In this document: positions 5,436 to 59,300 of the stretch, piece after piece
How the letters are laid out: each line of letters begins with the position of its first letter
Numbering within the stretch: the first letter of the stretch is position 1
IMG/VR virus record: IMGVR_UViG_3300000651_000003
Coordinates: 33,309 to 97,308 of that record
Source of the DNA: a virus
Length of the DNA stretch: 64,000 bases
Reading direction: 5' to 3' (one strand)
Made by a program: the position numbers and the translations under genes
Notes under the pieces: model-generated
What the model was told of the DNA's origin: nothing
Database searches by the model: none
Seen by the model: the letters and a program-made list of their open reading frames with translations, nothing else

Positions 5436-5444
5436 GAGAACTCG

Positions 5445-45192: not shown

Positions 45193-47148
45193 ATGTATCA
45201 GCCCGCAATCATACTTGACGAGTACGAGGATAGTGCTACCAGATGGACTCCTCCTCGTCCTGAAGACTTGCCAACGCTGGAAGGCGTTAGTCGCATCTCA
45301 ATGGATACTGAGAATAGTGGCAAGAACGCCTTCGATGACTTCGTATGTGGAGTGTCGATTGGCTGGCGAGACCCCGAGAATCTTGCAGCGAAATCTCTCT
45401 ACGCTCCTGTTGGCCACATCGAAGGCAATATGGATCCTGAAATCGTCAAGATGTGGATGGAGTATGTTTTGCCGGGTAAGGAAATCGTTTTTGCAAATGG
45501 TAAGTACGATATTCAGATCATGCGCACCGGGCTGAAGAAAAAGTTTGGTATTGACCTCGAGGCTCTGGGTTGTAAAGTTCGTGATGTAGCATTCCCTGCA
45601 GCTCTGTTGGACGACAGCCCGTTTGCTGATTTAAGCCTTGACGCAATTGGCATTAAGTACGTTGGCAGAGGCAAGGAGAGATTCCCCGGGGACATTGACA
45701 AAATGGCTAGCTACCCGAGTTGGATGGCTGGGCCTTATGCCGAGGGTGACTCGTTGATCACTCTTGAAGCAGACGAGAACATGGAACCGTTCATCCGGCA
45801 AGAAGGTTTGGAAAATGTTCTTGAGTTGGAAAATAGTCTCATCTATGCTGTCTGTGAGATTGAGCGCAATGGCTGCCGGGTGCATCGACCAAAACTGGAG
45901 CAATGGCGCAGCGAGGTCAGGACTGAGTATGAGAAGATCCTACGAGAAATCTTTCAACTAACCGGTTTCCGGGTTGACCCCGGGACCGTCGACTCGATGA
46001 TGAAGCTGTTTAGTTTTCTTGGCCTTGAGCCACCGAAGAAAAAACCAAAGCGCAAATCCAAAGCAAAGGGTAAATCTAAGCATCAAGAGGAGGAGCCTGA
46101 AGATGAGGAAGAAAATAGCCAAAAACGCACCTTTGAGGTTGATGAGTTATTATCGTTTAATCACCCCATCTTCAATTTAGTTGTTGATGCCAGACGGCAG
46201 CAAAGTTTACTGTCGAGATTTCTAGATAAGTACTATGAAGCTCTTACGTGGGGGCACCAGAACGGCAATGATTTGTTAAGAGCGTCATTCCATCAATGCA
46301 AGAACAATTTGGAAGCGCTCAAAAAGAAAGAGAAGGCTAAGGGCACCGGATGGGGCCGCTTTAGTAGTAGTGGCGGAGGAGATCTCAAGAGTGGGTATTC
46401 GTTTAATGCTCAGCAAGTCATACGAGCAGACAAGCAGGAAGCAGAGCTGGGCGATGCTCACATAATTCGAGAATTGTTTATACCAGACGACGGCATGGAA
46501 TACTTCAGCGCAGATATGAAGCAGGTTGAATATAGAATCTATGCCGCATTGGCTGGAGCCAAGACCGTCATCAAGGCTTACCGAGAGGATGCAAATACTG
46601 ACTACCATGCTTTGCTACACGATCGTATCCGACCCTACAAACCACATATTCAGCGAACCATTGTTAAGAATGTCAGTTTCGCTTATGCGTACAACTCTAG
46701 TCCTCAGACGTTGGCAGCCACCGCAGGAGTCACAATTAAAGAGGCAGAAGAGATATATGAATTTTGTAAACAGCTAATGCCAGAGCGAGACGGGTTCATA
46801 AAGAAATGCGCTCATGATGCCGAGCATAAAGGATACGTGGCTACCATCATGGGAAGGCGGGCGCGGTTCAAGCCTAGCGATCCCTTTTACAGAGCGGTTA
46901 GTCGCGTAGTACAGGGCAGTGCAGCTGATATATTTAAGCTAGCCCTGAGAGACTTATACCGCGAGAGAAAAACGCTCGGCATACACAAACTACGACAGGT
47001 TGTGCACGACGAAATCGACGGAGATAAAGAGCCGGGAGAAATTTATACAAAAAGGATTCTCGATTTCCTTGACGAACAGAGGTTCAACCTATCCATACCG
47101 ATTCGCTGGGACCTACACGCTGGAGCCAACTGGAGGGACTGCAAATGA
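45193..47148 (+). CDS. polA: Family A DNA polymerase with 3'-5' exonuclease domain
   Basis: 651 residues. Exonuclease motifs: Asp38/Glu40 in MDTEN, Asp106 in NGKYDI, and Tyr182/Asp186. Polymerase motif A YFSADMKQVEYRI (about 436), motif B R-x3-K-x3-F-x3-Y in RTIVKNVSFAYAY (about 488), motif C VVHDEID (about 603). The Phe in motif B is the Escherichia coli F762 equivalent. There is no 5'-3' exonuclease domain. Residues about 280-315 hold a Lys-rich then Glu-rich insertion. It is the replicative polymerase, next to its clamp. Confidence 0.95.
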   Translation: MYQPAIILDEYEDSATRWTPPRPEDLPTLEGVSRISMDTENSGKNAFDDFVCGVSIGWRDPENLAAKSLYAPVGHIEGNMDPEIVKMWMEYVLPGKEIVFANGKYDIQIMRTGLKKKFGIDLEALGCKVRDVAFPAALLDDSPFADLSLDAIGIKYVGRGKERFPGDIDKMASYPSWMAGPYAEGDSLITLEADENMEPFIRQEGLENVLELENSLIYAVCEIERNGCRVHRPKLEQWRSEVRTEYEKILREIFQLTGFRVDPGTVDSMMKLFSFLGLEPPKKKPKRKSKAKGKSKHQEEEPEDEEENSQKRTFEVDELLSFNHPIFNLVVDARRQQSLLSRFLDKYYEALTWGHQNGNDLLRASFHQCKNNLEALKKKEKAKGTGWGRFSSSGGGDLKSGYSFNAQQVIRADKQEAELGDAHIIRELFIPDDGMEYFSADMKQVEYRIYAALAGAKTVIKAYREDANTDYHALLHDRIRPYKPHIQRTIVKNVSFAYAYNSSPQTLAATAGVTIKEAEEIYEFCKQLMPERDGFIKKCAHDAEHKGYVATIMGRRARFKPSDPFYRAVSRVVQGSAADIFKLALRDLYRERKTLGIHKLRQVVHDEIDGDKEPGEIYTKRILDFLDEQRFNLSIPIRWDLHAGANWRDCK

Positions 47149-47267
47149 GTGACTTGCAATTCTTTGTGCAGAGCATCAGAGTCAGTTTCGAAATCTTCTG
47201 TTTTGTGGTGATAATACTTTTCCTTGTATTCGCAATCGTCTTGCCGTTTTGGAACAGGAGCAAATAA
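47145..47267 (+). CDS. Single-span membrane mini-protein
   Basis: 40 residues. It starts in an ATGA overlap with the polymerase stop and ends in a TAATG overlap with queD. A hydrophobic span (IFCFVVIILFLVFAIVLPFW) and a short basic tail. Its seamless fit between two certain genes supports it. Function unknown. Confidence 0.6.
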   Translation: MSDLQFFVQSIRVSFEIFCFVVIILFLVFAIVLPFWNRSK

Positions 47268-47674
47268 TGTACACAATAACTAAAGAATTCCATTTCGAAG
47301 CTGCTCACCACTTGTACGGGTTGCCAGAAGGCCACCAATGCGCTCGGATGCATGGACACTCATACCGAGTGGAAGTAGAATTGGCTTCTCCCAAACTTAA
47401 CAGAGTGGGTTTTGTTGTTGACTATGGCGAGCTTGACGTATTCGCTACGTACCTGAAAGAAAACTTCGATCATCAGGACCTCAATTTTGTGCTACAAAGA
47501 CTGTCGAAAATCCAAAACATGTGGTACAACGCAACAGGCGGCGATGGTATGTATAATCCTACTGCAGAAAATCTTGCCCGGGGATTTTACCTTTGGTGTA
47601 AACAGCATTGGAAAGAGACTATAGCTGTCCGCGTCAGCGAGACTCAAAAGACTTGGGCGGAACACCGTCCATAG
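47267..47674 (+). CDS. queD: 6-carboxytetrahydropterin synthase QueD
   Basis: 135 residues from the ATG with aggag six bases upstream. Zinc-binding histidines in FEAAHHL (His15) and MHGHSY (His29, His31), catalytic Cys25 in QCARMHG, then NPTAENLA and a final VSETQ, all typical of QueD. It converts dihydroneopterin triphosphate to 6-carboxytetrahydropterin, step two of preQ0 synthesis, between FolE and QueE, which are encoded nearby. Confidence 0.92.
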   Translation: MYTITKEFHFEAAHHLYGLPEGHQCARMHGHSYRVEVELASPKLNRVGFVVDYGELDVFATYLKENFDHQDLNFVLQRLSKIQNMWYNATGGDGMYNPTAENLARGFYLWCKQHWKETIAVRVSETQKTWAEHRP

Positions 47675-47703
47675 CAAAGCCACGGAAGGGAGAACATAAA
47701 TCT

Positions 47704-47883
47704 ATGATGTGGCTTCTTTTAATACTGGGTGCTCTGAATTTGGTTTGTATACTCATTGCACTCCGTAAACTATCAACCATGCTTCGCTTCGTCAAACAGA
47801 TGGAAACCTTATCGGCTTTAACATCGGGGCTGAAAGACTCATCTGAGAAATTGAAGGAAGCTCTTAAGAAACAGGGAGGTTAG
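47704..47883 (+). CDS. Small membrane protein with coiled coil
   Basis: 59 residues from tandem ATGs, gggag eleven bases upstream. An N-terminal membrane span (MMWLLLILGALNLVCILIAL) is followed by an amphipathic helix (TSGLKDSSEKLKEALKKQGG). The shape is like spanin or holin-accessory proteins, but nothing specific identifies it. Confidence 0.5.
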   Translation: MMWLLLILGALNLVCILIALRKLSTMLRFVKQMETLSALTSGLKDSSEKLKEALKKQGG

Positions 47884-47886
47884 GAA

Positions 47887-48150
47887 ATGTCTGTTCTCGA
47901 TGATGTAAATGCTCTGAAGGCTCAAATCGAGGCCACAGAAACAGTAGAAGGTTCTGCCACTACTTTCATTAACGGTGTGCCGGGCCTTATTTCAGCTGCA
48001 GTAGCCGCGGCGTTGGCGAACGGAGCCACCGCGGATCAACTGAAGCCTCTTACCGATCTTCAGTCTACACTGCAAGCACAAACCGAAGCGCTGTCAGCAG
48101 CGATCGCGGCAAACACTCCGCCGCCTCCGCCGCCTCCGGCCAATCCATAG
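47887..48150 (+). CDS. Small helical protein with poly-Pro tail
   Basis: 87 residues, ribosome binding site ggagg-like just upstream. Two Ala-rich helices (QLKPLTDLQSTLQAQTEALS) and a run of Pro near the end. Similar short coiled-coil/Pro proteins are common in phages and may be structural. Function unknown. Confidence 0.55.
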   Translation: MSVLDDVNALKAQIEATETVEGSATTFINGVPGLISAAVAAALANGATADQLKPLTDLQSTLQAQTEALSAAIAANTPPPPPPPANP

Positions 48151-48176
48151 TCGCGAGCAATCGCTGTCACGCGGAA

Positions 48177-48203
48177 GCCCCGGGCAACCGTAAGGCCCGG
48201 GGC
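48177..48203 (+). other. Strong GC-rich hairpin before secreted-protein gene
   Basis: Perfect nine-pair stem GCCCCGGGC / GCCCGGGGC with loop aaccgtaag, ending 9 bases before the ribosome binding site of the next gene. There is no U tract, so it is probably not an intrinsic terminator; it may protect or pace the downstream message. Confidence 0.5.
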
Positions 48204-48223
48204 AGACCGCAGGAGAATCTAAG

Positions 48224-48523
48224 ATGAAGAAATTGTTTATGACGGTAGTGGTACTGGTGGCAATCGCTGCTGTGGTGTTTACGTCGCGACCTGCTAAGGC
48301 GGTTTCCGCACCTTCAGCTGTGACTCAGGCCGACATCTGCGACGACGTTATCGCAGTAGCTCAAACGGACGGCGACCAGACTTATACGTCGTGCATTGCC
48401 GCGTTCGGTAGAGGGATGGACACGCAGTGCTTTCAGAATGCGTCACGTACTTTCACATCTACGCTTCGACAACAGAATTTTGCACTCGGAACCGATTGCG
48501 TAGGAACGTACCAAAGCCAGTGA
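48224..48523 (+). CDS. Secreted small cysteine protein
   Basis: 99 residues, ribosome binding site aggag. A clear signal peptide (KLFMTVVVLVAIAAVVFTSR, cleavage after AKA near residue 26). The mature part has four Cys, probably two disulfides, and is Gln/Thr/Asp rich. It is exported by the host Sec pathway during infection; possible roles include periplasmic interference or superinfection exclusion. Confidence 0.55.
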   Translation: MKKLFMTVVVLVAIAAVVFTSRPAKAVSAPSAVTQADICDDVIAVAQTDGDQTYTSCIAAFGRGMDTQCFQNASRTFTSTLRQQNFALGTDCVGTYQSQ

Positions 48524-48574
48524 AACCTTCGATGCGGCACGCTCCCACGTGGCTGCATCTTGGACTCAAACAAA

Positions 48575-48793
48575 ATGGCAAAAACAGCATTTAATCGCAG
48601 CAATATACTCACATTTGAAGAGCGTCAAGAAGCAGCTATCAAGTGTCTCAACCTTATAGAGGATGAAATGGAATCATTATCTCCTAAAGATCGCAATTTC
48701 GTTATTGAGATGGGAGACAAAGTTCATACCGGTGGGGCGAGCGAGCGACAACTTGCTTGGCTGCGAGACATTTGTGGGAAGCTGGGTTACTGA
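48575..48793 (+). CDS. Hypothetical helical protein
   Basis: 72 residues from MAKTAFNRS; the upstream TTG adds five residues. No clear ribosome binding site. The pattern (EEMESLSPKDRNFVIEMGDK-like, then GGASERQLAWLRDICGKLGY) resembles the small C-terminal helical unit found in many phage early proteins that ends in a Q..WL..I motif. Function unknown. Confidence 0.55.
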   Translation: MAKTAFNRSNILTFEERQEAAIKCLNLIEDEMESLSPKDRNFVIEMGDKVHTGGASERQLAWLRDICGKLGY

Positions 48794-48794
48794 G

Positions 48795-48932
48795 TTGGAA
48801 AAAATTCACTTCAGCTTTCAGAGAAAACCTCTTTGCCAGAACCGCAGCCGTTTGCGGTGCACTGACGATAAATCAAGAGTTACTTGTGATAGCTGCAAAA
48901 GAGAATTGGAGAAAAGACCATGGCTGAAATGA
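48795..48932 (+). CDS. Small CxxC zinc protein
   Basis: 45 residues from a TTG that overlaps the preceding stop region. KPLCQNRSRLRCTDDKSRVT followed by CDSCKREL is a pattern common to short phage zinc proteins (PLCG ... T.D...VTC..C). The non-ATG start and the 13-base overlap with queE leave some doubt. Confidence 0.5.
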   Translation: MEKIHFSFQRKPLCQNRSRLRCTDDKSRVTCDSCKRELEKRPWLK

Positions 48933-49594
48933 CCCTGAAGGTATCTGAGGTATTTTACTCGTTGCAGGGAGAAGGTGCCCGGGCTGGCGAGCCATCGATA
49001 TTCATTCGACTGCAAGGGTGCTCTGCAAAATATGCTTGCGCTCGGTCAGGAGTAGTTTGTGATACAGAGTTCGAATCCGGCAAAGAGATGACCCTTAAAG
49101 AATTGGACGACACCATCTATAATGTTGAGGTGCGAACTGTGGCAGGAGCCACCCTGCGACCATGGTGGATCGTCTGGACTGGCGGCGAACCCCTCGACCA
49201 GTTGACTCCAGACATCCTGAGGTGGTTCAAAGACAAAAAGTACATGCAGGCGATAGAGACTAGCGGCATCAAATATATGTCGAATGAAATCTCTACCTTG
49301 CTCGACTGGATTGTCTGTTCGCCGAAGGTAGCAGAGCACATACTCGAAAAGAATTTCAAGGACGTCATCCGCAAGCATGAAGCTGGAAACGTTGACGAGC
49401 TGAGATATGTTCGTCACGCAGGCCAGCCCGGGGTCCCCGTACCTGCTCTACATGCTCAGTACTACTACCTGTCGCCCCATACTGACGGTCAGAAAATCAA
49501 CCAAGGAAATCTCCGACACTGCATCAAGCTCTGTTTAGAAAATCCAATGTGGAGGCTGTCTGTTCAGCAGCACAAGCTATGGCAGATACTATAA
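48920..49594 (+). CDS. queE: 7-carboxy-7-deazaguanine synthase QueE
   Basis: 224 residues, ggag eight bases upstream. The start VSEVFYSLQGEGARAGEPSI and FIRLQGCS are the QueE opening; WTGGEPLDQ is the SAM-binding GGEP motif; SPKVAEH and YYLSPHTDG follow the family. The cluster cysteines would be Cys34, Cys40 and Cys47 (C-x5-C-x6-C), not the common CX3CX2C. It converts QueD product to CDG by radical SAM chemistry. Its 3' end overlaps folE. Confidence 0.88.
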   Translation: MAEMTLKVSEVFYSLQGEGARAGEPSIFIRLQGCSAKYACARSGVVCDTEFESGKEMTLKELDDTIYNVEVRTVAGATLRPWWIVWTGGEPLDQLTPDILRWFKDKKYMQAIETSGIKYMSNEISTLLDWIVCSPKVAEHILEKNFKDVIRKHEAGNVDELRYVRHAGQPGVPVPALHAQYYYLSPHTDGQKINQGNLRHCIKLCLENPMWRLSVQQHKLWQIL

Positions 49595-50166
49595 ACCAAA
49601 AACCAGACATCGAGCACCAATACGACCTGTTAAAGATGTCGATAGCTGACACCTTGATTGCCCTCGGCCTCAATATTGAGTCTGAGGGGCTTAAACGAAC
49701 GCCGGCTCGCATAGCCAAGTTCTATCTTGAGTTCCTGCGACCCCCAGACTTCGAATTCACCGTATTCGACAATGATGGCAGCGACGAGATGGTAATCCAG
49801 AGTGACATAGAGTTTGCCAGTCTCTGCGAGCACCACGGCCTACCATTTATCGGCGCCGCAGCGATCGCATACATACCAGACGGTAAAATTGTAGGCTTGT
49901 CGAAGCTGGCTCGGTGCCTTGATACTTATGCTCGTAGGTTCCAAAATCAGGAACGCATTACCCGGCAAGTTGCTGATGCATTACAAGAGGCGTTGAATCC
50001 AAAAGGAGTCGCTGTTGTACTTAAGGCCCGGCACTTCTGCATCGAGATTCGCGGAGTGAGAAAGCGCGGTTCAATCACTACTACATCTTGTCTGACAGGA
50101 GTATTTAAAAACGACCCGGCTTGCCGCAATGAATTTCTATCACTAGCACGAGGAATGAGAATATGA
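49579..50166 (+). CDS. folE: GTP cyclohydrolase I (FolE)
   Basis: 195 residues from the ATG overlapping the queE end; a GTG ten codons upstream is possible. KRTPARIAKFYLEFL, then SLCEHHGLPFIG with Cys83, DGKIVGLSKLARCLDTYARR and ARHFCIEIRGV with Cys154 are standard GCH1 zinc and active-site motifs. It opens GTP to dihydroneopterin triphosphate, the first step of preQ0 synthesis. The C terminus is a complete type I core. Confidence 0.92.
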   Translation: MADTINQKPDIEHQYDLLKMSIADTLIALGLNIESEGLKRTPARIAKFYLEFLRPPDFEFTVFDNDGSDEMVIQSDIEFASLCEHHGLPFIGAAAIAYIPDGKIVGLSKLARCLDTYARRFQNQERITRQVADALQEALNPKGVAVVLKARHFCIEIRGVRKRGSITTTSCLTGVFKNDPACRNEFLSLARGMRI

Positions 50167-50885
50167 GTACCCCAGAAACTGTGGCCCTAGAGCTTGACGA
50201 ACCAACTACCAACATCGACAAAATCCACCCGGAGTTAAGGCAGTTCGCCAAACCAATGGAGGACTTAATCCCTGACCCGGAGAACGCCAACAAGCACGAC
50301 GCCCGCAACCTGAAAATGATTGCCGAGAGTCTTATCCGGTTTGGTCAAGTAGTGTTGCTCAAGGTCAATCGAGAAACCAACTTCATCGAAAAAGGTAACG
50401 GCACCTACATGGCAGCCAAAATGCTTGGTTGGACTCAGCTTGCTGCAATATGGTCAGACTTAGATAGGACAGAAGCGATCGCATACGGTTTGATTGATAA
50501 TCGCTGTGGGCAGACATCTCGCCCCGACTATGCGCAGACAGGAAAGCACCTTAGGGAGTTGAAAGAGGCTGACTACGAGATGATGCAATTTTGGACTCCG
50601 GAAGAGGCGCTGCCACTCGTTAGAGGGGAGTTTGTCAAGCCGGAAATCAGTGACGAGAAGTTTGACTCAGGGTTGCAGCGTGGTAGGCCGATATCGAAAA
50701 TCTCAGCTAGCGAGCGCATAACTGTAGACCGAGCCATTGCGTTCGTCAGAACCAAGGACAAGCGGTACAAGACCGAAGGCTCGGCCCTTGACTTCATATG
50801 TGGCGAGTTCATGGCATATCATGTCAACGATCTTGACAACGAGACCGAGGACCAAATCGAGCTCGAAGCTCTGTCGTTAGAGTAA
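50163..50885 (+). CDS. ParB/Srx-fold protein (possible DpdB-like partner)
   Basis: 240 residues, ATGA overlap with folE. Residues 30-120 follow the ParB N-terminal domain: LIPDPENANKHDARNLKMIA, SLIRFGQVV, IEKGNGTYMAAKMLGW and AIAYGLIDNR. The ParB arginines of GERR are replaced by GNGTY, as in other phage relatives. In bacterial dpd islands DpdB, also of ParB/Srx type, assists DpdA, so this gene may help base insertion; this is inference from position. The C terminus is LEALSLE, the recurrent peptide. Confidence 0.7.
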   Translation: MSTPETVALELDEPTTNIDKIHPELRQFAKPMEDLIPDPENANKHDARNLKMIAESLIRFGQVVLLKVNRETNFIEKGNGTYMAAKMLGWTQLAAIWSDLDRTEAIAYGLIDNRCGQTSRPDYAQTGKHLRELKEADYEMMQFWTPEEALPLVRGEFVKPEISDEKFDSGLQRGRPISKISASERITVDRAIAFVRTKDKRYKTEGSALDFICGEFMAYHVNDLDNETEDQIELEALSLE

Positions 50886-50889
50886 ACTC

Positions 50890-51027
50890 ATGGTCAGCAT
50901 ATTCAATCGCATACAAAATCTCTGGCGAGGTTCTTGGCTTTATTGTTTTACTCATCACCACGATCCTGTGCATACCATGGATGGCAGGATCTGGTGTAGG
51001 GTTTGTTTGAAATTCAGGTTGCTCTAA
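50890..51027 (+). CDS. Small CF-HHH-CxxC protein
   Basis: 45 residues filling the gap before queC. YCFTHHHDPVHTMDG and RIWCRVC suggest a compact zinc site. A second member of the same pattern is encoded at 63389-63532. No good ribosome binding site, but the repeated motif supports it as real. Confidence 0.5.
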   Translation: MVSIFNRIQNLWRGSWLYCFTHHHDPVHTMDGRIWCRVCLKFRLL

Positions 51028-51038
51028 AAGGAGGAGAA

Positions 51039-51761
51039 ATGGAACAGGGAAAGGCTGTGGTGCTTCATAGTGGTGGCCTTGACTCCACTACATTGCTTTA
51101 TTACATCAAGGGCATGGGATTCGAAGTTTACCCACTAACGATTTACTATGGCCAGCGGCACAGCCGGGAGATAACGTCGGCTGTTGAGATTTGTGCTACA
51201 ATGGGTATTCCAGAGCGGTTCAGAAAAGTTGACCTCGAGAGTCTGCAAAGCGTAATGCTAGGCAGTAGTCAGACAGACCGCACTGTAGAAGTACCCGAGG
51301 GGCACTACGCAGCAGACAACATGGCGATTACCGTAGTACCGAATCGCAACATGATTCTGCTGGCCGTCGCTACTGCTTATGCAATCAGCATTAAAGCGAA
51401 ACTTGTGGCCTACGCTGCTCACATCGGCGACCATGACCAGTATCCGGATTGCCGACAGGTCTTCATTGACCAATTAGCAGAAGCCATCAAGCTCTGTGAC
51501 AACAACCCACCGTATCTAATTGCACCCTTCAGTGGGTACTCGAAACAGCAGATTGCAGAGCTAGCCAACACTATCGGCGTGCCAATCGAGTTGACTTACT
51601 CATGCTACAAGGGTGAGGAAAAGCATTGTGGTCGTTGCGGGACTTGTGTTGAGAGAGCAGAAGCATTAAGCCTCGCAGGAGTGGAAGATAAGACTCAGTA
51701 CGTGGATGCAGAGTATTGGAAAGCGGTGACCAACCATGCAAATGCACAAGTTTCGCAATAG
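51039..51761 (+). CDS. queC: 7-cyano-7-deazaguanine synthase QueC
   Basis: 240 residues with aaggagg just upstream. P-loop SGGLDS (11-16), VPNRN (100-104), HIGDHDQYPDCR, and zinc cysteines 189, 197, 200 and 203 in CYKGEEKHCGRCGTC are all present. It turns CDG into preQ0 using ATP and ammonia and completes the pathway. The gene overlaps the transporter gene downstream by 26 bases. Confidence 0.95.
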   Translation: MEQGKAVVLHSGGLDSTTLLYYIKGMGFEVYPLTIYYGQRHSREITSAVEICATMGIPERFRKVDLESLQSVMLGSSQTDRTVEVPEGHYAADNMAITVVPNRNMILLAVATAYAISIKAKLVAYAAHIGDHDQYPDCRQVFIDQLAEAIKLCDNNPPYLIAPFSGYSKQQIAELANTIGVPIELTYSCYKGEEKHCGRCGTCVERAEALSLAGVEDKTQYVDAEYWKAVTNHANAQVSQ

Positions 51762-52515
51762 TCTGTGGTTCGCCATTACTTTGGTTGCATTCTACCTTGG
51801 TGCGATCGTGCTGGCGAACTACCTCATCACAAAATATGGTCAGGTAGCTGTGCCATTTGTGGCATTCGCTCTAATTCCATTTGACTTGATTGCCCGGGAC
51901 TTGATGCAAGACCATTGGAACTGGGTTCCCGGCAGAAGCAGAATGTACGTCGCTGAGAGAATGTCTGTGGTAATAGTGGTAGGTGCTGTCATCTCATATG
52001 CGACGGGAACAGGTTCATTCAGGATAAATGCTGCCTCTTGCTTGGCATTCATGGCAGCTGCCACTATTGACGCGCTGACCTACCAGTGGATGATACGGTA
52101 CGGGCGGATATTCCGCATTAACGCCGCTACCTTTACCGCTGCGGTGACTGACTCGCTCATCTTCGTGTTCATTGCATTCAGCGCAATTAACTGGCAACTA
52201 GTAGGATTGCAGATTGTTATGAAAATCTCGGGAGGGTTTGTCTGGTCATTGCTGCTGTACAAACTTTTTCGGCAGCGCTACGACCGAGTAGAGTTTGTTC
52301 CACCTATGATTTTCAAAAAAGAATACAAACCCACTTTCGACTATGCCCGATTGTTTGCAAAAGAGCGAGTAATCCAAGGTTCGTTTGTTGGTCCAGTGAA
52401 TTGTGGTCTGTGCTCAGGTAGTTCTAATACCGGGTGTCGTTGCCACTCCGCTGAAGGATTAGGCTGCGACATGCTTTGTCACGTAGACTACATTGGCAGG
52501 TTAGTTAGGAGATAA
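51736..52515 (+). CDS. VUT-family (YhhQ-like) preQ0/queuosine precursor transporter with Cys-rich tail
   Basis: 259 residues. About six membrane spans, with the VUT family opening YLGAIVLANYLITKYGQ, FALIPFDLIARD, and TFTAAVTDSLIFVFIAF. YhhQ-type members import preQ0 or preQ1. The last 60 residues are an extra cysteine-rich part (CGLCSGSSNTGCRCH, CDMLC) not usual for the family, possibly a zinc domain. Transport together with a full synthesis pathway would raise precursor supply. Confidence 0.75.
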   Translation: MQMHKFRNSLWFAITLVAFYLGAIVLANYLITKYGQVAVPFVAFALIPFDLIARDLMQDHWNWVPGRSRMYVAERMSVVIVVGAVISYATGTGSFRINAASCLAFMAAATIDALTYQWMIRYGRIFRINAATFTAAVTDSLIFVFIAFSAINWQLVGLQIVMKISGGFVWSLLLYKLFRQRYDRVEFVPPMIFKKEYKPTFDYARLFAKERVIQGSFVGPVNCGLCSGSSNTGCRCHSAEGLGCDMLCHVDYIGRLVRR

Positions 52516-52518
52516 AGT

Positions 52519-53043
52519 ATGTCAGAAGAAATCAAAGCGAAGAGCGGCAGTGCGTGGGAGTGTGCTATGGTGCCTGCCGAGAAAAGGCGTACACCGGATC
52601 AAATAGCCACTATCGCTGCTTGGGTAATGCAATGCCCGGGTTGGTCACCAGCATGGGACAAATTCTTGTTATGCTGTGTTCACCTTCGACAGATTGAAGG
52701 AGTTAAGCCGGCTGTATTCACTATGCAAGGTGCCACGCATGAGATTATGCTAGTGGCGCTGGACCCAACGTATGCCGCAGACCCCGACGATATATTCTCA
52801 GACAAAACGAGAATACTTCGCCCAATAAACATCGTGCAGCAATTTATCGTCAACAATGACGACCAAGCTATAGAGCTTACGAAAAATGTTGCAATGGCTT
52901 GTATTCAGGGCATATTACCAATCGAACCGCAGGGTATCAGAGGAGCTAGGGAGTACTGGGAAAGCACAATACTTACTACCGCTCAGCACATTCGAGATGG
53001 TTGCTGCTCAGAGGATTCCGCAACTAAAGAGACGATAAATTGA
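52519..53043 (+). CDS. Hypothetical protein in the deazaguanine cluster
   Basis: 174 residues following the transporter gene by 3 bases, with aggagat upstream. Helical, with PGWSPAWDKFLLCCVHLRQI and a TMQGATHEIMLVALDP strand pair. No family recognised. It sits between the transporter and the first DpdA-like gene and overlaps the latter (TTGA), so it may act in base modification. Confidence 0.55.
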   Translation: MSEEIKAKSGSAWECAMVPAEKRRTPDQIATIAAWVMQCPGWSPAWDKFLLCCVHLRQIEGVKPAVFTMQGATHEIMLVALDPTYAADPDDIFSDKTRILRPINIVQQFIVNNDDQAIELTKNVAMACIQGILPIEPQGIRGAREYWESTILTTAQHIRDGCCSEDSATKETIN

Positions 53044-53816
53044 CTCAAATATATTTCGCAAGTACTCCCCGGGCTGACCTGCTTGAACTGACACTTGGGC
53101 AGTGGGATTGGGTTGACAAACCACTCAACATTCTAGTGGCGTTTCCTTTCTCGAAAGTGTGGCACTCAGAAAATGAAGAGAAAAACAATTTCTGGCAGTG
53201 CAAGGCGACCATGCTTGACTCGGGCGCATACTCTGCTTGGTCTGCGGGCAAGGAGATTGATATGGATGAACTCTGCAAAGAGGCAGTTCGTACATATACA
53301 AAGCCCGATGGATCGATCCACAAATGCTGGGACGAAGTAGTTGCTTTGGACGTCATCGGCGACGATAAAGCTAGCCTAGTTAATTCATTGGAAATGAAGA
53401 ACCGAGGATTGGAAATAATGCCGGTGTTCCACTTCGGTGACGACTGGGCAATCCTACAGGAATACAAAAGTCAGTTCCATCGCATTGGCATAGCGTCAGG
53501 GCATGGGGCGCCGTTTGCTCAGCGCATCAAGTGGACGAATCAATGTTTCGCCCGGGCCTACCCAGCGAAGTTTCACTCCTTTGGTTGGATTGAAGAACGA
53601 GTGCTGATGGAGTTTCCTTTTGTGACAGCTGACTCCTCGAGTTGGGCTGCCGGCACTCGGTTCGGTGTTTCGAAAATCCACAAAGGTATGCGCATTCCAA
53701 AAAAGAGTGAAGTCGGGGCCAGCAACGCGGACTTAAGGTTTGATTTGTTAGCATACCTCGAGATGCAAGAGAGGTTGGTAGACAGGTGGAAATCTGAGTT
53801 AGCTTGGGCTAACTAA
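53040..53816 (+). CDS. DpdA-like DNA deazaguanine transglycosylase, paralog 1
   Basis: 258 residues from TTG in a TTGA overlap. Motifs shared by all three paralogs: LDSGAYSAW (Asp60), WDEVVALDVIGD (Asp104), MPVFHFGDDW, CFARAYPAKFHSFG and a DSSSW block with Asp198. This is the layout of phage DpdA, a TGT-fold enzyme that swaps guanine in DNA for a 7-deazaguanine. Where paralogs 2 and 3 have GGIA this copy has GIASG, so substrate or sequence preference may differ. Confidence 0.78.
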   Translation: MTQIYFASTPRADLLELTLGQWDWVDKPLNILVAFPFSKVWHSENEEKNNFWQCKATMLDSGAYSAWSAGKEIDMDELCKEAVRTYTKPDGSIHKCWDEVVALDVIGDDKASLVNSLEMKNRGLEIMPVFHFGDDWAILQEYKSQFHRIGIASGHGAPFAQRIKWTNQCFARAYPAKFHSFGWIEERVLMEFPFVTADSSSWAAGTRFGVSKIHKGMRIPKKSEVGASNADLRFDLLAYLEMQERLVDRWKSELAWAN

Positions 53817-53837
53817 AAAAAGCTTGGGCCTTCCACA

Positions 53838-53901
53838 GTGGGCCTGAGAGGGTGCGAGGGTTGGTAGAAGTCGAGGGGTCGATTAGGCCACTCTCGCACT
53901 C
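53838..53901 (+). ncRNA. Structured intergenic RNA element with crossing stems
   Basis: GTGGGCCT (53838-53845) can pair with AGGCCAC (53885-53891, one bulge), and GGGTGCGAG (53850-53858) with CTCGCACTC (53893-53901, one G-U). The two helices cross, so they form either a pseudoknot or two alternative folds. A small TCGA-gggg-TCGA hairpin lies between. It precedes the ribosome binding site of the next mini-gene. Confidence 0.4.
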
Positions 53902-53918
53902 CTAAAAAGGGGGAAACG

Positions 53919-54041
53919 ATGTTAAGTTGGCGCAGACTCGGAAGCACAAGAAGCAGAAGCGGTACGGGTTGTCTGGTCCCGATGCTGATTGCAGTTGGGC
54001 TTGTATACGGGATTCTGTTGTACGTGTTGTCGAGAGGCTGA
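53919..54041 (+). CDS. Single-span membrane mini-protein
   Basis: 40 residues with aaaggggg upstream, ending directly against the methyltransferase start. A basic Ser/Arg/Gly-rich N terminus, then a hydrophobic span (CLVPMLIAVGLVYGILLYVL). Unknown function, one of several such mini-proteins here. Confidence 0.55.
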   Translation: MLSWRRLGSTRSRSGTGCLVPMLIAVGLVYGILLYVLSRG

Positions 54042-54671
54042 ATGGCAAAATATCCTATTTCGATTCAAGATTCGTTGCATGATGGCAAGCTTGGGCCAGC
54101 ATTCGCTAACCTGCTAAAGTTACATGTCAAGCCGTGGCATGAAATTCTTGACCCTACTGCCGGCAGCCGGCTCCTCTGGGAAGGCATACCATTAGACAAA
54201 TACCACGTCTATTTCAGCGATATACAAGGTGATAACGGCAACATCAAAATGGATCTGCGAGAAGCTGGGTTACGATTTGCTCTGGGGTCATTTGATGCAG
54301 TGGTCTTCGACCCACCCTACTTCATTGGTAAATCGAAGACGAAAGACCCGCGAGAGGACAAGTACGGTGGTTATGTGCAGTCATATGAGGAGCTCAGGCA
54401 GTTCATTCAAATGTGCACTCACCCAATCTGGCATCTACTAAAGCCGGGTGGTAAGTTGATTGTGAAATGCAGTGACCAGTACTCAGTGCCTGAAAGAAAA
54501 ATCTATACTCATCATATCGACTGGGCGATCAAGATGCAAGAGCATTACGAAATCGTTGACATAATGATCTACCGACACCATCGCATCAGCCCGACCGCGT
54601 TCCAAGTTAAGAATCGGCCTTGCTCAGTAATCATGCACACATACTTCATCGTTGGGAGAAAAATAGTATGA
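54042..54671 (+). CDS. DPPY-type DNA methyltransferase
   Basis: 209 residues. EILDPTAGSRLLWEG is the SAM-binding motif I, VVFDPPYFIG the catalytic DPPY motif of N6-adenine/N4-cytosine enzymes, and LLKPGGKLIVKCSDQ the following strand. There is no obvious target recognition domain, so it is small. Placed between DpdA paralogs 1 and 2, it might methylate phage DNA or act on the deazaguanine; the second idea is speculative. Confidence 0.75.
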   Translation: MAKYPISIQDSLHDGKLGPAFANLLKLHVKPWHEILDPTAGSRLLWEGIPLDKYHVYFSDIQGDNGNIKMDLREAGLRFALGSFDAVVFDPPYFIGKSKTKDPREDKYGGYVQSYEELRQFIQMCTHPIWHLLKPGGKLIVKCSDQYSVPERKIYTHHIDWAIKMQEHYEIVDIMIYRHHRISPTAFQVKNRPCSVIMHTYFIVGRKIV

Positions 54672-55513
54672 CTGAGTTATACTTCGCAGCTCCTAACTCA
54701 TTTCACATTCAGCGCGACACCTTCGGTCGCTGGGATTGGTTGAACCCGCTGAATGTTCTCGTGGCTTATGAGCCGAAAGAAGGATTCCTGTCATGGGTGC
54801 AGCGAGGAGCCGGTTGGACTCAGACACCGGGTAAGTTCGATGCCACTCGAGGTCAAGGTTACCAATTCGCTCAGTACCCAGATCCAACTTGCACTCCCGG
54901 GGTCAAAACGATTTTAGATTCAGGAGCATTCAGCGCTTGGAAATCAGGCACTTCTGTCAACTTACAAATGTTGATTGAAGAAGCGAAAAAGCGCTGCCCG
55001 AGATGGGACGAAGTAGTTTCGCTCGACGTGATCGGTGACCCAGTAGAAAGTACATTCAACGCAGTGCAGATGCAGAAAGCCGGTCTGCATGTTATACCGG
55101 TATTTCATTATGGCGAGGACTGGGGCTACCTCGAGGCTTACAAGGATCGGTTTGGCGGCAGAGTGGGTCTGGGCGGAATAGCCACGGGAATCTCAAGTAC
55201 GCAGAAAAGAAAATGGTTGTCACAATGCTTTGCTAGAGCATACCCGGCAAAGTTTCACGGGTTCGGCGTAGCCACCAAAGAATTGCTAATGAAGTTTCCT
55301 TTCTACTCGGTAGACACAGCGTCGTGGCACACCGCACTAAGGTATGGCAGGTCATCTGCGGCCCCGGAAATCAAGCAACCGAAAAAGTCTAGTCTTGATG
55401 GAACTCAGTTCGACGGGTCAGGCTATGACTTGAGATACGAAATAATGGCCTACCTTGAGATGGCTCAAGAGGTGAATGAGCGTTGGAAAGGTGAGTTGTC
55501 GTGGGCACATTAG
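54668..55513 (+). CDS. DpdA-like DNA deazaguanine transglycosylase, paralog 2
   Basis: 281 residues from the ATG overlapping the methyltransferase stop. Carries all conserved blocks: TILDSGAFSAW (Asp84), WDEVVSLDVIGD (Asp120), IPVFHYGEDW, GLGGIA, CFARAYPAKFHGFG and SVDTASW (Asp216). Compared with the other two it has an insertion of about 25 residues (40-75) before the first Asp block. All putative catalytic residues are intact, so it should be active. Confidence 0.8.
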   Translation: MTELYFAAPNSFHIQRDTFGRWDWLNPLNVLVAYEPKEGFLSWVQRGAGWTQTPGKFDATRGQGYQFAQYPDPTCTPGVKTILDSGAFSAWKSGTSVNLQMLIEEAKKRCPRWDEVVSLDVIGDPVESTFNAVQMQKAGLHVIPVFHYGEDWGYLEAYKDRFGGRVGLGGIATGISSTQKRKWLSQCFARAYPAKFHGFGVATKELLMKFPFYSVDTASWHTALRYGRSSAAPEIKQPKKSSLDGTQFDGSGYDLRYEIMAYLEMAQEVNERWKGELSWAH

Positions 55514-55695
55514 TTCAAGTATGCGTGTGTATGAATTGCAACATATATTTCAAAAGAAGGATTCCGACTGCAATCGACGAAGAAGCTATTTTAGTAGAAA
55601 AGTGCCCAAGATGTGAGTCAACAAACTGGATTCCGATGGGAATCGACACAGAGTCCTTAGAAGATGAGATTCCGTCTATACTTCGCCCTGCATAA
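55501..55695 (+). CDS. Zinc-ribbon mini-protein between DpdA paralogs
   Basis: 64 residues from a GTG overlapping the paralog 2 stop; an inner ATG at 55531 is possible. CVCMNCNIYF and CPRCESTNWIP form a zinc ribbon. It overlaps the start of paralog 3 by 32 bases. It could be a DNA-binding adaptor for the transglycosylases, on position alone. Confidence 0.55.
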   Translation: MGTLVQVCVCMNCNIYFKRRIPTAIDEEAILVEKCPRCESTNWIPMGIDTESLEDEIPSILRPA

Positions 55696-56473
55696 CACTC
55701 CAATGGCAAACGACATGACGTTTGGCCAATGGGATTGGAATGCTCGCCCACTAAACATCCTATGCTCGTTTGCACTCAAAGGTGCTCTGCGATCGTGGAA
55801 AAATCGTCAGTACGAAACCCCCGGGGTAAAGACCATTCTTGACAGCGGTGCATACTCAGCATGGAAATCCGGAACCGATGTAGACTATGATGACTTTATT
55901 TTAGAAGCTATAGAAGAGGGTTGGGACGAAGTGGCCGCATTAGACGTTATTGGGGATCCCGTCAGCAGTCAGGCATGTGCATTCGATATGAAAGTTCAAC
56001 ATCACATTGACACTCTCCCAGTGTTCCACTACGGCGAGCCGTGGGAATACTTGGCTAAGTACAAAGAACATTTCAACAGTCGAGTGGCTATCGGTGGAAT
56101 TGCTGGCATTGGTAAGCAGCAGAAAATCAAATTTGTCGGTCAATGCTTTGCTCGGGCGTATCCTTGTAGCTTCCACGGGTTTGGCGTTGGCGATGAAGAT
56201 GTGTTAATGGAGTTTCCGTTCGCGAGTGCAGACACTGCATCATGGGGATCGGTGCATATGTATGGTCGCAGCATGGCAGCCCCGGGCCTGAAAATACCAA
56301 AGCTTGAGGACGGAGATAGAAATAAGCATTACGACTTAAGATTCGAAGTAGCCGCATTCTGCGAAATGGAAGATCGAGTTCGTGATCGATGGAGCAATGA
56401 GCTCCAAAAATTAGAGTCACTGCTGAACCCTTTAAGTAGTGGGGCGGTGGCAAAAACTCAAAAATCTAGTTGA
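55664..56473 (+). CDS. DpdA-like DNA deazaguanine transglycosylase, paralog 3
   Basis: 269 residues. Same block order: TILDSGAYSAW (Asp60), WDEVAALDVIGD (Asp94), LPVFHYGEPW, AIGGIA, CFARAYPCSFHGFG and SADTASW (Asp190). The last 35 residues are a polar extension. It is closer in motif detail to paralog 2 (GGIA, SWKSG) than to paralog 1. It is the last gene of the cluster; the next promoter starts 4 bases before its stop. Confidence 0.8.
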   Translation: MRFRLYFALHNTPMANDMTFGQWDWNARPLNILCSFALKGALRSWKNRQYETPGVKTILDSGAYSAWKSGTDVDYDDFILEAIEEGWDEVAALDVIGDPVSSQACAFDMKVQHHIDTLPVFHYGEPWEYLAKYKEHFNSRVAIGGIAGIGKQQKIKFVGQCFARAYPCSFHGFGVGDEDVLMEFPFASADTASWGSVHMYGRSMAAPGLKIPKLEDGDRNKHYDLRFEVAAFCEMEDRVRDRWSNELQKLESLLNPLSSGAVAKTQKSS

Positions 56474-56499
56474 GATTCTATGCTCAAATAGGTTAGACT
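56470..56499 (+). promoter_or_regulatory. Promoter, TTGA-N18-TAGACT type
   Basis: TTGAGA (56470-56475), 18-base spacer, TAGACT (56494-56499), followed by ccgggccgtg. Matches the promoter at 39910-39939 in spacing, -10 box and flanks. It drives a gene that ends at its own terminator. Confidence 0.6.
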
Positions 56500-56547
56500 C
56501 CGGGCCGTGTTAAGTTGTGTAAAGAGTGATCGAGAAAGGTAGTTGAA

Positions 56548-57321
56548 ATGACAGATCAAGAGAAGCCTGCCCAGCTGTTTGCCCTTGTTGATGTGAGCTC
56601 TACTGAGAATGCTTCATTCCTCAAACGAGCATCACTCAAGGACATTTTAGTTTGGCAGAAGTACTTTGTGGCGGAAGGCAAGGCAGTCAAACGGCTGGAC
56701 TTGATCCATGATTTGGAGACACTTCAATACCTTTTTTGGAACACGACCCAGACGGCCCCTGCAGATACAATCGAAGCTTTGGTGTCTGCCTGCGCCGAGT
56801 TGGCTAACCAAGTGCCGGTAGATGACACTACAAGCATGGAAGAGTTGCTAAATCAACTTCCTGCGAACGGTGGCTCTGCCGACGTAACCAATTTAGAAGA
56901 AGGAGAAACTGTTACAATGGGACAAGGTGCAAAGACAGAAGGAACACTGGAAAAAGGTTCTGCCAAGAAGAAAACCAGTGCGAAGAAGCCTGCTGCGGAT
57001 GCTGCCGAGACTACAAAGCCGGCTGCTGAAGCGAAACCGAAGAAAGAGAAGGACCCGACTGGTCGACCGAGCGAAGGTACTGCAACCCGCAAGGTGTGGG
57101 ATATCGCCGACAAGTTGGCTGAAGCTCAGGGTCATACACCGACTCGTGGCGACGTTATTGATGCGTCAGTCAAGGCTGGTGTCAACAAGGCGACTGCCGG
57201 GGTGCAGTATGGTGCGTGGATGAAGGGAATGAAGCGCGACCCCGCGCCGAAGCCGGTCAAGGAAGTCGAGGCTGCGGAGGAGACTGAGACCGAGGACAAC
57301 GAAGAGGGTGAGGAAGAGTAA
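56548..57321 (+). CDS. Lys/Ala-rich, possibly DNA-binding protein in its own transcription unit
   Basis: 257 residues. An N-terminal helical domain (1-105), a histone H1-like Lys/Ala/Pro linker (GSAKKKTSAKKPAADAAETT), then residues about 180-230 (KVWDIADKLAEAQG ... KAGVNKATAGVQYGAWMKG) shared with the protein at 32294, and a very acidic tail (EETETEDNEEGEEE). A dedicated promoter and strong terminator suggest high expression, as for a nucleoid-type or single-strand-binding factor. No known family. Confidence 0.6.
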   Translation: MTDQEKPAQLFALVDVSSTENASFLKRASLKDILVWQKYFVAEGKAVKRLDLIHDLETLQYLFWNTTQTAPADTIEALVSACAELANQVPVDDTTSMEELLNQLPANGGSADVTNLEEGETVTMGQGAKTEGTLEKGSAKKKTSAKKPAADAAETTKPAAEAKPKKEKDPTGRPSEGTATRKVWDIADKLAEAQGHTPTRGDVIDASVKAGVNKATAGVQYGAWMKGMKRDPAPKPVKEVEAAEETETEDNEEGEEE

Positions 57322-57360
57322 ATCACCGACCTCGTATCTCAGTTCTGAATGAACAACCAT

Positions 57361-57390
57361 ACGGGGTCTCGACATGGGACCCCGTTTTTT
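57361..57390 (+). terminator. Intrinsic terminator
   Basis: Stem ACGGGGTC (57361-57368) / GACCCCGT (57378-57385), loop tcgacatgg, then a run of T. It closes the single-gene unit that begins at the 56470 promoter. Confidence 0.85.
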
Positions 57391-57414
57391 ATCGCCATCG
57401 AATCCCTGTGAGCC

Positions 57415-57861
57415 ATGATAGAACACAAAGGCGATATCTGGACCTTCCGACAACCAGACGATCACGTAGTAATAACAACCAATAATACAATCAGGCGGGA
57501 CGGTGCTCTCGTCATGGGCCGAGGCATAGCCTTAGAGGCCTGTTCAAAATATCCTCGCTTGCAGTTCGAACTCGGCAATCGCATCAGGCAGTTTGGATTG
57601 AGAGTCGAACACATCAGGCCACACAAGTTAATAATCTTCCCAGTAAAATTCCACTACCGAGACTCGGCCGACATAAATCTTATACTTCGCAGTACCCTGC
57701 AATTGTTAACCTTGGCTGAGGAAATTGAAGGTCGCATTCTAATGCCGCGGCCCGGGTGTGGTTACGGTCACTTAGACTGGGCAGAAGTAGGGCCAATGAT
57801 GAATCATTATTTGACGAGCGACAAGTTCATAGTTTTCTCCAAAGACAAGTCTGCGAGGTGA
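57415..57861 (+). CDS. Macro domain protein
   Basis: 148 residues. HKGDIWTFRQ, then ITTNNTIRRDGALVMGRGIA and ILMPRPGCGYGHLDW are the binding-loop motifs of macro domains, which bind or hydrolyse ADP-ribose groups. A phage copy could reverse host ADP-ribosylation defences or recycle ADP-ribose phosphate. There is no clear ribosome binding site. The stop codon lies within a structured RNA element. Confidence 0.8.
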   Translation: MIEHKGDIWTFRQPDDHVVITTNNTIRRDGALVMGRGIALEACSKYPRLQFELGNRIRQFGLRVEHIRPHKLIIFPVKFHYRDSADINLILRSTLQLLTLAEEIEGRILMPRPGCGYGHLDWAEVGPMMNHYLTSDKFIVFSKDKSAR

Positions 57862-57934
57862 AATCGGCTCCCTCGCAGTTGCCGCGCTCCCGGGAACGCT
57901 TTTCGGCATGGTGGGTGCGTTCCCGGTCGAGCCG
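57851..57934 (+). ncRNA. Pseudoknot-like RNA element
   Basis: Hairpin 1: CTGCGAGG (57851-57858) / CCTCGCAG (57871-57878). Its loop holds CGGCTC (57865-57870), which pairs with GAGCCG (57929-57934). Hairpin 2: CCGGGAACGC (57890-57899) / GCGTTCCCGG (57917-57926), ten perfect pairs. The loop-to-tail pairing closes around hairpin 2, a compact pseudoknot. It spans the macro gene stop and ends 13 bases before the HNH gene. Confidence 0.55.
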
Positions 57935-57947
57935 GCTTGACAAAAAG

Positions 57948-58424
57948 ATGAAGCGGTCAGGATTCAAAAAACTATCTTACGAGGATGCCCTTATAAAAGC
58001 AGAGGCTACCCGGGCAGGGCAGAGGGCGAGAGCAGTGGGGAAAGCCCGGGAAAACGCTCGTAAAAGAGTGACTTCTGGCCTGAGAAAGCGGTCACCCAAA
58101 GCACAGGCAAACCAAAGCAGAGAACTAGCATTCACCAAAGCTGTTAGGGAACGAGATAGGTGTATGTGCAGATGGTTCTACCCAGATGGTAGTCGCTGCA
58201 CCTATCAGGATCCTAACATTACCGTTCATCATATCAACGAGCGATCGCAACGTCCAGACGAAAAGTTTAATCCCGACAATGGTGCGTGTATTTGTCCGGA
58301 GCATCACGATTACATGCACCATACCGTAGCAGGCCGAGAGCGTGGGAGGGTTCTTGGCCTGCTTGGTGGCGAGACTTACGAAAAAGCAATGAAAAGGAAA
58401 CGAGATGGAAGCCCTGTCGCTTGA
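57948..58424 (+). CDS. HNH endonuclease-like protein
   Basis: 158 residues from MKRSGFKK. Basic N terminus; cysteines 72, 74, 84, 114 and 116 plus TVHHINERS (His94/95), NPDNG and CPEHHDYMH (His119, 120, 124) form an HNH/zinc fold. It could be a homing-like, packaging or nicking nuclease; it is not inside an intron as far as I can see. Overlaps the next gene by 20 bases. Confidence 0.75.
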   Translation: MKRSGFKKLSYEDALIKAEATRAGQRARAVGKARENARKRVTSGLRKRSPKAQANQSRELAFTKAVRERDRCMCRWFYPDGSRCTYQDPNITVHHINERSQRPDEKFNPDNGACICPEHHDYMHHTVAGRERGRVLGLLGGETYEKAMKRKRDGSPVA

Positions 58425-58638
58425 TGACGACATTACTCCTTTGGAATTAGAACTGGAACCACAGCATGTTCCGAAAATGGAGTTGACTGTAAAGCTGTAC
58501 CCCTTTAGTAAATATATGAAGGTGCCAGACAGCGAACTACTCGGGATGACTGCTCATGGGTTTCAGGTTACTGCTGTCAACGATATTGTAGGGGTACATG
58601 GGTTAGAGAGTAGAACGATCATATTGAGGCAACTATGA
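58405..58638 (+). CDS. Hypothetical protein with N-terminal MEALSLDD
   Basis: 77 residues, aaagga upstream. Begins MEALSLDDDITPLELELEPQ, the same peptide found at the C termini of other proteins here. The remainder is a small alpha/beta domain (VPDSELLGMTAHGFQVTAVN). Function unknown. Overlaps the following membrane gene by 4 bases. Confidence 0.55.
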   Translation: MEALSLDDDITPLELELEPQHVPKMELTVKLYPFSKYMKVPDSELLGMTAHGFQVTAVNDIVGVHGLESRTIILRQL

Positions 58639-59143: not shown

Positions 59144-59207
59144 ATACTCGGGTGTGGCTACCCGGCAATAAACAAAGAATGCGATCCCCTAGTTCTCAAG
59201 TAAATCG

Positions 59208-59291: not shown

Positions 59292-59300
59292 TATTTGAGA

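Follow-up and report, generated by a model that had tools for sequence, protein, structure and literature searches.

The tailed-phage record IMGVR_UViG_3300000651_000003 (a virus of bacteria) encodes three neighboring DpdA-type transglycosylase paralogs beside all four genes for the precursor 7-cyano-7-deazaguanine (preQ0), and one of the three differs from the other two in a pair of loops placed at the base by a weak alignment to tRNA-guanine transglycosylase (TGT). The window, which is the whole 64,000-base stretch analyzed, comprises bases 33309 to 97308 of this 97,308-base record, which is metagenomic and of unknown completeness. Between window positions 47,267 and 56,473, all on the + strand, lie queD, queE, folE, a ParB-like gene, queC, a VUT-type transporter gene, a small open reading frame (ORF), the first transglycosylase gene (P1), a DPPY methylase gene, the second transglycosylase gene (P2), a zinc-ribbon-like ORF, and the third transglycosylase gene (P3), with some small ORFs also sitting between queD and queE. 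The explanation we prefer, at a probability of roughly 0.55, is a set of three specialized DpdAs, in which preQ0 is made, P2 and P3 would insert it, P1 would differ in base or site, and the ParB-like protein would act as a helper; on balance, several specialized writers are favored as the mechanism. What is new here, within the known DpdA/preQ0 system, is that the DpdA set is enlarged and its pocket has switched.

The ORFs of the locus were present at the positions first noted, with start codons checked. P1 (53040 to 53816, TTG start), P2 (54668 to 55513), and P3 (55664 to 56473) encode proteins of 258 to 281 residues that match phrog_887 (P1, E = 2e-32; P2, 9.4e-33; P3, 3e-31) and phrog_7068 (1.9e-17, 8.8e-25, and 3.7e-18, in the same order), both of which are named queuine tRNA-ribosyltransferase. 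The Pfam TGT model (PF01702), which matched 14 of 14 control genomes, had no match in P1 to P3 or elsewhere in the record, and the bacterial DpdA model NF041059 had none in the record and none at E values up to 1 for P1 to P3. PADLOC reported zero Dpd genes among 10 proteins scanned, solved-structure sequence searches with P2 alone or with a profile returned no TGT, and viral-contig scans with P1 or P3 as a single query found zero relatives.

Predicted structures placed the proteins more clearly. AlphaFold models were built from alignments of the window proteins and viral-contig relatives (22 sequences for P2 and 20 for P1), with predicted local distance difference test (pLDDT) scores of 82 and 85. 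The best Foldseek match of the P2 model was 7ui4, the DNA preQ0 insertase DpdA (E = 4.4e-5), to which VIA-align fitted 239 residues with a Z score of 16.5 and a root mean square deviation of 3.7. All 50 rows listed by VIA-align for P2 were archaeosine TGT (arcTGT), TGT, or DpdA (Z of 15.8 to 16.8), and 50 of 50 rows listed for the P1 model were TGT or arcTGT (Z of 16.1 to 16.7). Both models therefore align to the TGT/DpdA barrel, the fold that the initial annotation had put forward for checking; P3 is 53 to 54% identical to P2, and the model-based evidence covers P1 and P2.

The claim of three intact DpdA-like genes made in the initial annotation was borne out not only by the phrog_887 matches (E = 3e-31 to 9.4e-33) but by the motif blocks and Asp residues, which were found in all three proteins. 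Residues D84, D120, H147, H197, and D216 (P2 numbering) are kept in P1, P2, and P3, and across 290 DpdA copies they are conserved in 290, 290, 288, 289, and 289, respectively. The CxCxxC zinc motif of TGT is absent from all 290 full DpdA reading frames, P1 to P3 included, and its absence thus characterizes the sampled phage family as a whole. Profile alignment with hhalign against a single TGT gave a 17-column match at the DSG motif only (probability, 3.4%), while local realignment against 16 TGT sequences gave a sensible path at low probability. Along this weak path, DSGAFSAW falls on TGT DSGGFQVF, SLDVIGD on the Asp of FDEC, the Asp of SVD on the Asp of FDCV, GLGGIATG on the VGGLAVGE loop, and HGFG on the YLMG stretch. 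In Z. mobilis TGT these aligned places correspond to Asp102 and Asp280, which are the catalytic Asp pair, to Asp156, to the loop of Gly230 and Leu231, and to Met260, which stacks on the base; D84 and D216 of P1 to P3 would accordingly be the catalytic pair. A conserved His at position 196 is described as absent from DpdA2 (PMC6884629), and either of the two near-invariant His residues kept in P1 to P3, H147 and H197, could be that residue. P1 to P3 thus look like intact DpdA-type paralogs that would act on DNA, and none resembles a dead partner.

The copies are old. Pairwise identity among P1 to P3 is 43 to 54%, second codon positions are the most alike and third positions the least, and the fourfold-degenerate sites compared in the three pairs differ at 23/33, 21/29, and 34/46 (70 to 74%). 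Near-saturated synonymous sites in genes whose protein sequence is conserved indicate old copies constrained as proteins. P1 to P3 formed one clade in every tree: support was 93/92 with 29 rows (a branch not starred), 94 by the Shimodaira-Hasegawa-like approximate likelihood ratio test (SH-aLRT) with 93 rows, 97 by SH-aLRT with 88 rows, and 100/98 with 40 rows and the pocket columns excluded. P2 and P3 were nearest kin with mixed support (91/70, 80, 98, and 92/19, in the same order of trees). The initial annotation had called for a phylogeny to tell recent from ancient copies; the clade and the codon patterns together point to an old, lineage-specific triplication.

In the pocket, P1 carries GIASG and FHSFGW, while P2 carries GLGGIATG and FHGFGV and P3 carries AIGGIAG and FHGFGV, so that P2 and P3 have the GG/HGFGV pocket and P1 an HSFGW-type pocket. 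Among the 290 copies, Ser follows His197 in 15 of 15 SCR-loop proteins, in 1 of 231 GG-loop proteins, and in 3 of 44 others, these three being P1 and both copies of locus L138. That locus (5114 to 6741) is a tandem pair, both HSFG-type, with no preQ0 pathway gene in the fetched stretch. SCR/HSFG-type proteins are the closest relatives of the window clade. In approximately unbiased (AU) tests, placing P2 and P3 among the GG rows was rejected (p = 0.0079), as was placing P1 among the SCR rows (p = 0.0016), which argues that the pocket changed within this lineage. The simplest account of these sequences is an HSFG-type ancestor from which P2 and P3 would have shifted to the common pocket after duplication. 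GG and non-GG loops are mixed in 3 of 24 multicopy groups: the window, L047/L205, and L131/L265. The latter two each pair one SCR-type with one GG-type copy, and because the paired copies are drawn from separate parts of the tree, the two-pocket set was reached by two routes.

Loop type also varied with the end point of the precursor pathway. The fetched stretch included folE, queD, and queE in 198 groups; among these, queC went undetected in 9/10 groups with a GK loop, 4/4 with GV, 20/161 with GG, 0/8 with SCR, 2/12 with other loops, and 0/3 with mixed loops (GK and GV together, 13/14, versus GG, 20/161; Fisher p = 5e-10). In the 13 groups with no queC detected, the GV loop has LGV for LGG (L106, L108, L112, and L296), and the GK loop has LGK (L168, L154, L167, L185, L195, L196, L197, L158, and L170). 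A pathway without QueC ends at 7-carboxy-7-deazaguanine, and the pattern suggests that GK and GV DpdAs may insert this base or a later product. For phage Bipper, a pathway ending at 7-carboxy-7-deazaguanine has been raised as a possibility (PMC6884629). The Arg of the SCR loop was considered as a sign of the same base and dropped, queC being present at 8/8 such groups. Variation of the loop with the product at which the pathway ends supports its involvement in choosing the base. Phage DpdA is reported to insert preQ0 into DNA (PMC6884629), and the DpdA of phage 9g, which that study used, carries the GG loop; P2 and P3 would therefore be expected to take preQ0, with P1 the odd one out. The initial suggestion that the paralogs may use different bases is supported in part, by the divergent loops of P1 and by the tracking of loop with queC absence across relatives.

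All four genes of the preQ0 pathway described in the initial annotation were supported by Pfam, PHROG, and NCBIfam matches, those of QueE and QueD lying under the NCBIfam cutoffs. QueD (6-carboxy-tetrahydropterin synthase; 47267 to 47674, ATG at 47267) matched PF01242 (E = 2.8e-29), phrog_2389, and, slightly below the cutoff, TIGR03367 (3.6e-23). QueE (radical-SAM 7-carboxy-7-deazaguanine synthase; 48920 to 49594) matched the QueE-like phrog_2076 (1.1e-27), Pfam weakly, and TIGR04508 under the cutoff (7.7e-28). Its cysteines have the unusual spacing CX5CX6C, shared by 3 of 61 alignment rows, with this very gene accounting for two of them; the common spacing CX3CX2C accounts for 33 of the 61. 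The same CX5CX6C spacing occurs in QueE of a Bacteroidetes metagenome-assembled genome contig that carries dpdA (L041). FolE (GTP cyclohydrolase I; 49549 to 50166, GTG start as listed, overlapping queE) matched PF01227 (8.9e-61) and passed the TIGR00063 cutoff, and QueC (preQ0 synthase; 51039 to 51761, ATG at 51039 in an ORF that opens at 51003) matched PF06508 (1.5e-57), passed the TIGR00364 cutoff, and keeps its Cys-rich tail. In the family scans, the QueD query started one codon 3' of its ATG and the QueC query one codon 5', with the matches unaffected. As the initial annotation had it, no QueF is visible: across the whole record the sole QueF match fell inside folE, a result that stands beside no record-wide search for ArcS or glutamine-amidotransferase genes. 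The DpdC/YaaA type (PF03883), found in 4 of 14 control genomes, had zero matches in the record. The nucleoside dPreQ0, proposed from the outset as the simplest product, would remain so.

Three copies in one place were seen in this record only. The comparison set held 266 dpdA groups (244 viral contigs, 16 genome contigs, 5 phage records, and the window), in which 241 had one full copy, 23 had two, 1 had three (this record), and 1 (L046, in two pieces) had pieces only, in keeping with the earlier statement that a single dpdA is usual. Loci were merged only if they had identical DpdA cores, and near-identical contigs therefore stay separate; copies and neighbors were counted inside fetched stretches with flanks of 6 to 10 kb, less at contig ends; and a full copy was set at 140 model positions, a threshold that the second copies of L032 and L096, being cut or broken, do not reach. 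In L096 (2635 to 3411), a second dpdA broken into several frames lies beside an intact copy as a decaying pair. Samples are biased toward the queries, since four of five productive viral scans contributed the best 80 confirmed relatives by query similarity out of 559, 272, 174, and 482, two of these totals being "at least" values. Each of the first 22 viral relatives had a single copy across its whole record, and a contrast of three copies here with single copies everywhere else was dropped when wider scans gave two copies in 23 of 266 groups. Among isolate phages, tblastn matched 225 records at 226 places with P2, 225 at 228 with P1, and 130 at 130 with P3, and among the matches listed only Nicole72 and Megan (Megan being present under two accessions) had two places.

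Multicopy sets were spread over five or more separate clades in the 88-row tree, a quick tree of the 24 multicopy groups with chosen and random single copies that carried a long-branch warning. SH-aLRT support was 97 for the window, 100 for L298, 98 for the L168/L154/L167 set, 98 for the L109/L124/L151 set and kin, 100 for Nicole72/Megan, and 93 for L180. The distribution fits repeated origin of tandem dpdA sets, and repeated loss from older duplications could also produce it. L047, L058, L202, and L265 each combine two copies from separate parts of the tree. L151, L160, and L275, and likewise Nicole72 and Megan, retain both copies as two ortholog sets, which argues for nonredundant roles.

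Taken as a mechanism, FolE, QueD, QueE, and QueC would make preQ0 from GTP, and the VUT-type transporter may import it as well. We infer that the three DpdA-type enzymes would swap guanines in phage DNA for 7-deazaguanines, a change that would hide the DNA from host nucleases. An old triplication in the phage lineage would have been followed by specialization: P2 and P3, with the widespread GG/HGFG pocket, would most likely insert preQ0, perhaps in different sequence contexts, and P1, with an HSFG-type pocket like its nearest relatives, would most likely have another base or site preference. The ParB-like protein would probably be a DpdB-like helper. The genes, the fold of P1 and P2, the conserved residues, the phylogeny, and the pocket differences are direct results of computation.

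Several results weigh against three specialized DpdAs. The phage is known only from a metagenomic record. In Foldseek, no match of the P1 model reached an E value of 0.001, and the 50 rows listed for it were barrels other than TGT. The profile alignment behind the mapping of TGT residues is weak (hhalign E = 0.012; probability, 3.5%), and the mapping draws on agreement in fold as well. The branch that sets the window clade on the SCR side had support of 84/89, and P2 and P3 as sisters had 92/19 in the 40-row tree from which the pocket columns were excluded. The pattern of loop and queC was found post hoc, is uncorrected for descent, and reflects queC sought within the fetched flanks only; moreover, queC occurs at 8/8 SCR-loop groups that have the other three genes, so the SCR pocket is no pointer to a base made before preQ0. 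With loops mixed in only 3 of 24 multicopy groups, the pocket difference cannot explain most tandem sets.

That last count also serves the explanation closest to ours, in which all three enzymes would insert preQ0 and differ in motif or strand, their pocket differences being neutral or kinetic: 21 of 24 multicopy groups do not mix GG and non-GG loops. DpdA of phage CAjan is reported to modify GA and GGC sites specifically (PMC8306585, the phage MED16 paper), so DpdAs can be motif-selective, and P2 has an insert ahead of the DSGA block, P1 a predicted hairpin, and all three proteins different loops. We regard one base at different sites as possible but rather doubtful, because the pocket loop varies with pathway content and P1 departs from P2 and P3 exactly there. 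The eukaryotic queuine TGT consists of an active and an inactive subunit, and the overlapping same-strand genes suggest coordinated translation, as would suit three proteins forming one enzyme. All three nevertheless keep catalytic-type residues with no evident dead subunit, and 241 of 266 groups manage with one full copy. The hetero-complex raised in the initial annotation is thereby disfavored in its inactive-partner form, and we consider a hetero-oligomer of any kind unlikely, a complex of active subunits being the form that would still fit.

Extra copies that merely raise the amount of enzyme would also lie in tandem on one strand, as these do. An identity of 43 to 54%, near-saturated synonymous sites, diverged loops, and the maintenance elsewhere of paired copies as distinct orthologs make simple dosage or redundancy quite improbable. 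The metagenomic origin of the record and the existence of decaying second copies such as that of L096 bring to mind an assembly artifact or decaying duplicates, but these copies are too different to be assembly repeats, their frames are open, and their key residues are all kept, leaving such an origin scarcely credible. Three specialized DpdAs thus remain our preferred explanation.

The genes between and around the paralogs were examined for a part in the same system. P1 and P2 each start with a 4-base overlap of the preceding gene and P3 with a 32-base overlap, an arrangement like that of a translationally coupled operon. The ParB-like gene (50163 to 50885; phrog_620, E = 1.1e-21) was absent from the initial annotation, yet it is the neighbor that recurs with dpdA: in 151 of 264 other groups a counterpart lies no more than 1 kb from dpdA. 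By copy number, a ParB-like gene was found at 18 of the 23 groups with two copies and at 135 of the 241 with one. DpdB has been described as a ParB-type partner of DpdA (PMC12839542 and PMC6392294) and is perhaps dispensable in some clusters (PMC12839542). The window protein had no match to the DpdB model NF041060 at E values up to 1 in NCBIfam, where it matched two weak ParB-type models only, and so the label DpdB-like derives from context and superfamily. The VUT/YhhQ-type transporter (51736 to 52515; Vut_1, PF02592, E = 4.8e-7, above the cutoff), a candidate for preQ0 uptake, was matched at 1 of 264 other dpdA groups with the window protein as the sole seed. The small ORF at 52519 to 53043, which overlaps the start of P1 by 4 bases and has no PHROG or PADLOC match, was likewise matched at 1 of 264.

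Between the paralogs lie a DPPY-type DNA methyltransferase gene (54042 to 54671), weakly of the N6/N4 family (N6_N4_Mtase, E = 4.1e-5, below the cutoff; phrog_24333, 5.6e-16), and a small zinc-ribbon-like ORF with two Cys pairs (55501 to 55695), which overlaps P2 and P3 and has no PHROG or Pfam match. The initial annotation had suggested that both may belong to the same machine as the transglycosylases, a proposal that found no support elsewhere: neither was matched at any of 264 other groups in scans seeded with the window proteins alone, which distant relatives may escape. The idea that the zinc ribbon stands in for the lost TGT zinc site was dropped on the same count (0/264). A stretch of 225 bases between P1 and the methylase gene (53817 to 54041) has no assigned gene and no Rfam match at the gathering threshold; Rfam gave zero such matches over 44000 to 60000, and no tRNA was found within the window.

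The tailed-phage record has matches to terminase, portal, and tape-measure-type proteins, and family matches show that it also encodes a family A DNA polymerase, a sliding clamp, and a DnaB-like helicase. The gene 3' of P3 (56548 to 57321) has a related second copy at 32297 to 32992 on the - strand (E = 2.9e-17). The small protein encoded at 57415 to 57861, with a DarG-like match (PADLOC, E = 5e-11), a match to phrog_335 ("phosphatase"), and no Pfam match at E values up to 0.1, is perhaps a macro-domain protein that would remove ADP-ribose in counterdefense.

The locus resembles phage systems in which preQ0 genes adjoin a TGT-type DpdA, as in Enterobacteria phage 9g, Escherichia phage CAjan, and mycobacteriophages Rosebush and CRB2 (Hutinet et al. 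2019, PMC6884629). That paper describes the CAjan/Rosebush group as lacking an amidotransferase, and in CRB2 a ParB-like gene adjoins dpdA, as in the window. The window differs from these systems in its three paralogs, the variant pocket loop of P1, and the interleaved transporter, methylase, and zinc ribbon. Microbacterium phages Nicole72 and Megan likewise have adjacent dpdA paralogs with ParB-like and preQ0 genes, but with two copies, in a separate clade, and of one pocket class. Megan genes 2 and 3 are both publicly annotated as queuine tRNA-ribosyltransferase; the Nicole72 announcement, in the text available, mentions preQ0 genes, and the words DpdA and transglycosylase are absent from it. 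Bacterial Dpd restriction-modification (DpdA/DpdB/DpdC) also uses a TGT homolog to insert preQ0 in DNA and a ParB-like ATPase (PMC12839542), whereas the window has no match to curated DpdA or DpdB and the record no DpdC-type gene. With TGT and arcTGT, the P1 and P2 models have the barrel fold in common, and the Asp and GG motifs align weakly; P1 to P3 differ from TGT in having no Pfam TGT match, only 258 to 281 residues, and no CxCxxC. No description of multiple or tandem DpdA was found in the literature searched, a scope mostly outside subscription papers and preprints.

To our knowledge, the determinants of base and site choice in DpdA are open. We tentatively propose a DNA-marking system whose complement of DpdA writers can grow and whose base-contacting loop would act as a specificity code (GG for preQ0, GK or GV for a pathway that stops before QueC, and HSFG or SCR for a different base or context), which could let one phage write at least two distinct 7-deazaguanine marks. 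If so, the window would hold the largest writer set seen, and P2 and P3 would have switched pockets after duplication, giving the kind of mix found in L047 and L131/L265. Tandem dpdA sets, with copies that have diverged and been kept, are natural contrasts, combining one phage, one precursor pool, and several writers. If the loop code is true, dpdA sequence could predict the base in the DNA of uncultured phages, and DNA labeling would profit from enzymes able to set different modified bases at selected positions. The three versions of the enzyme suggest that a single virus may put several kinds of chemical mark on its DNA or address several kinds of site.

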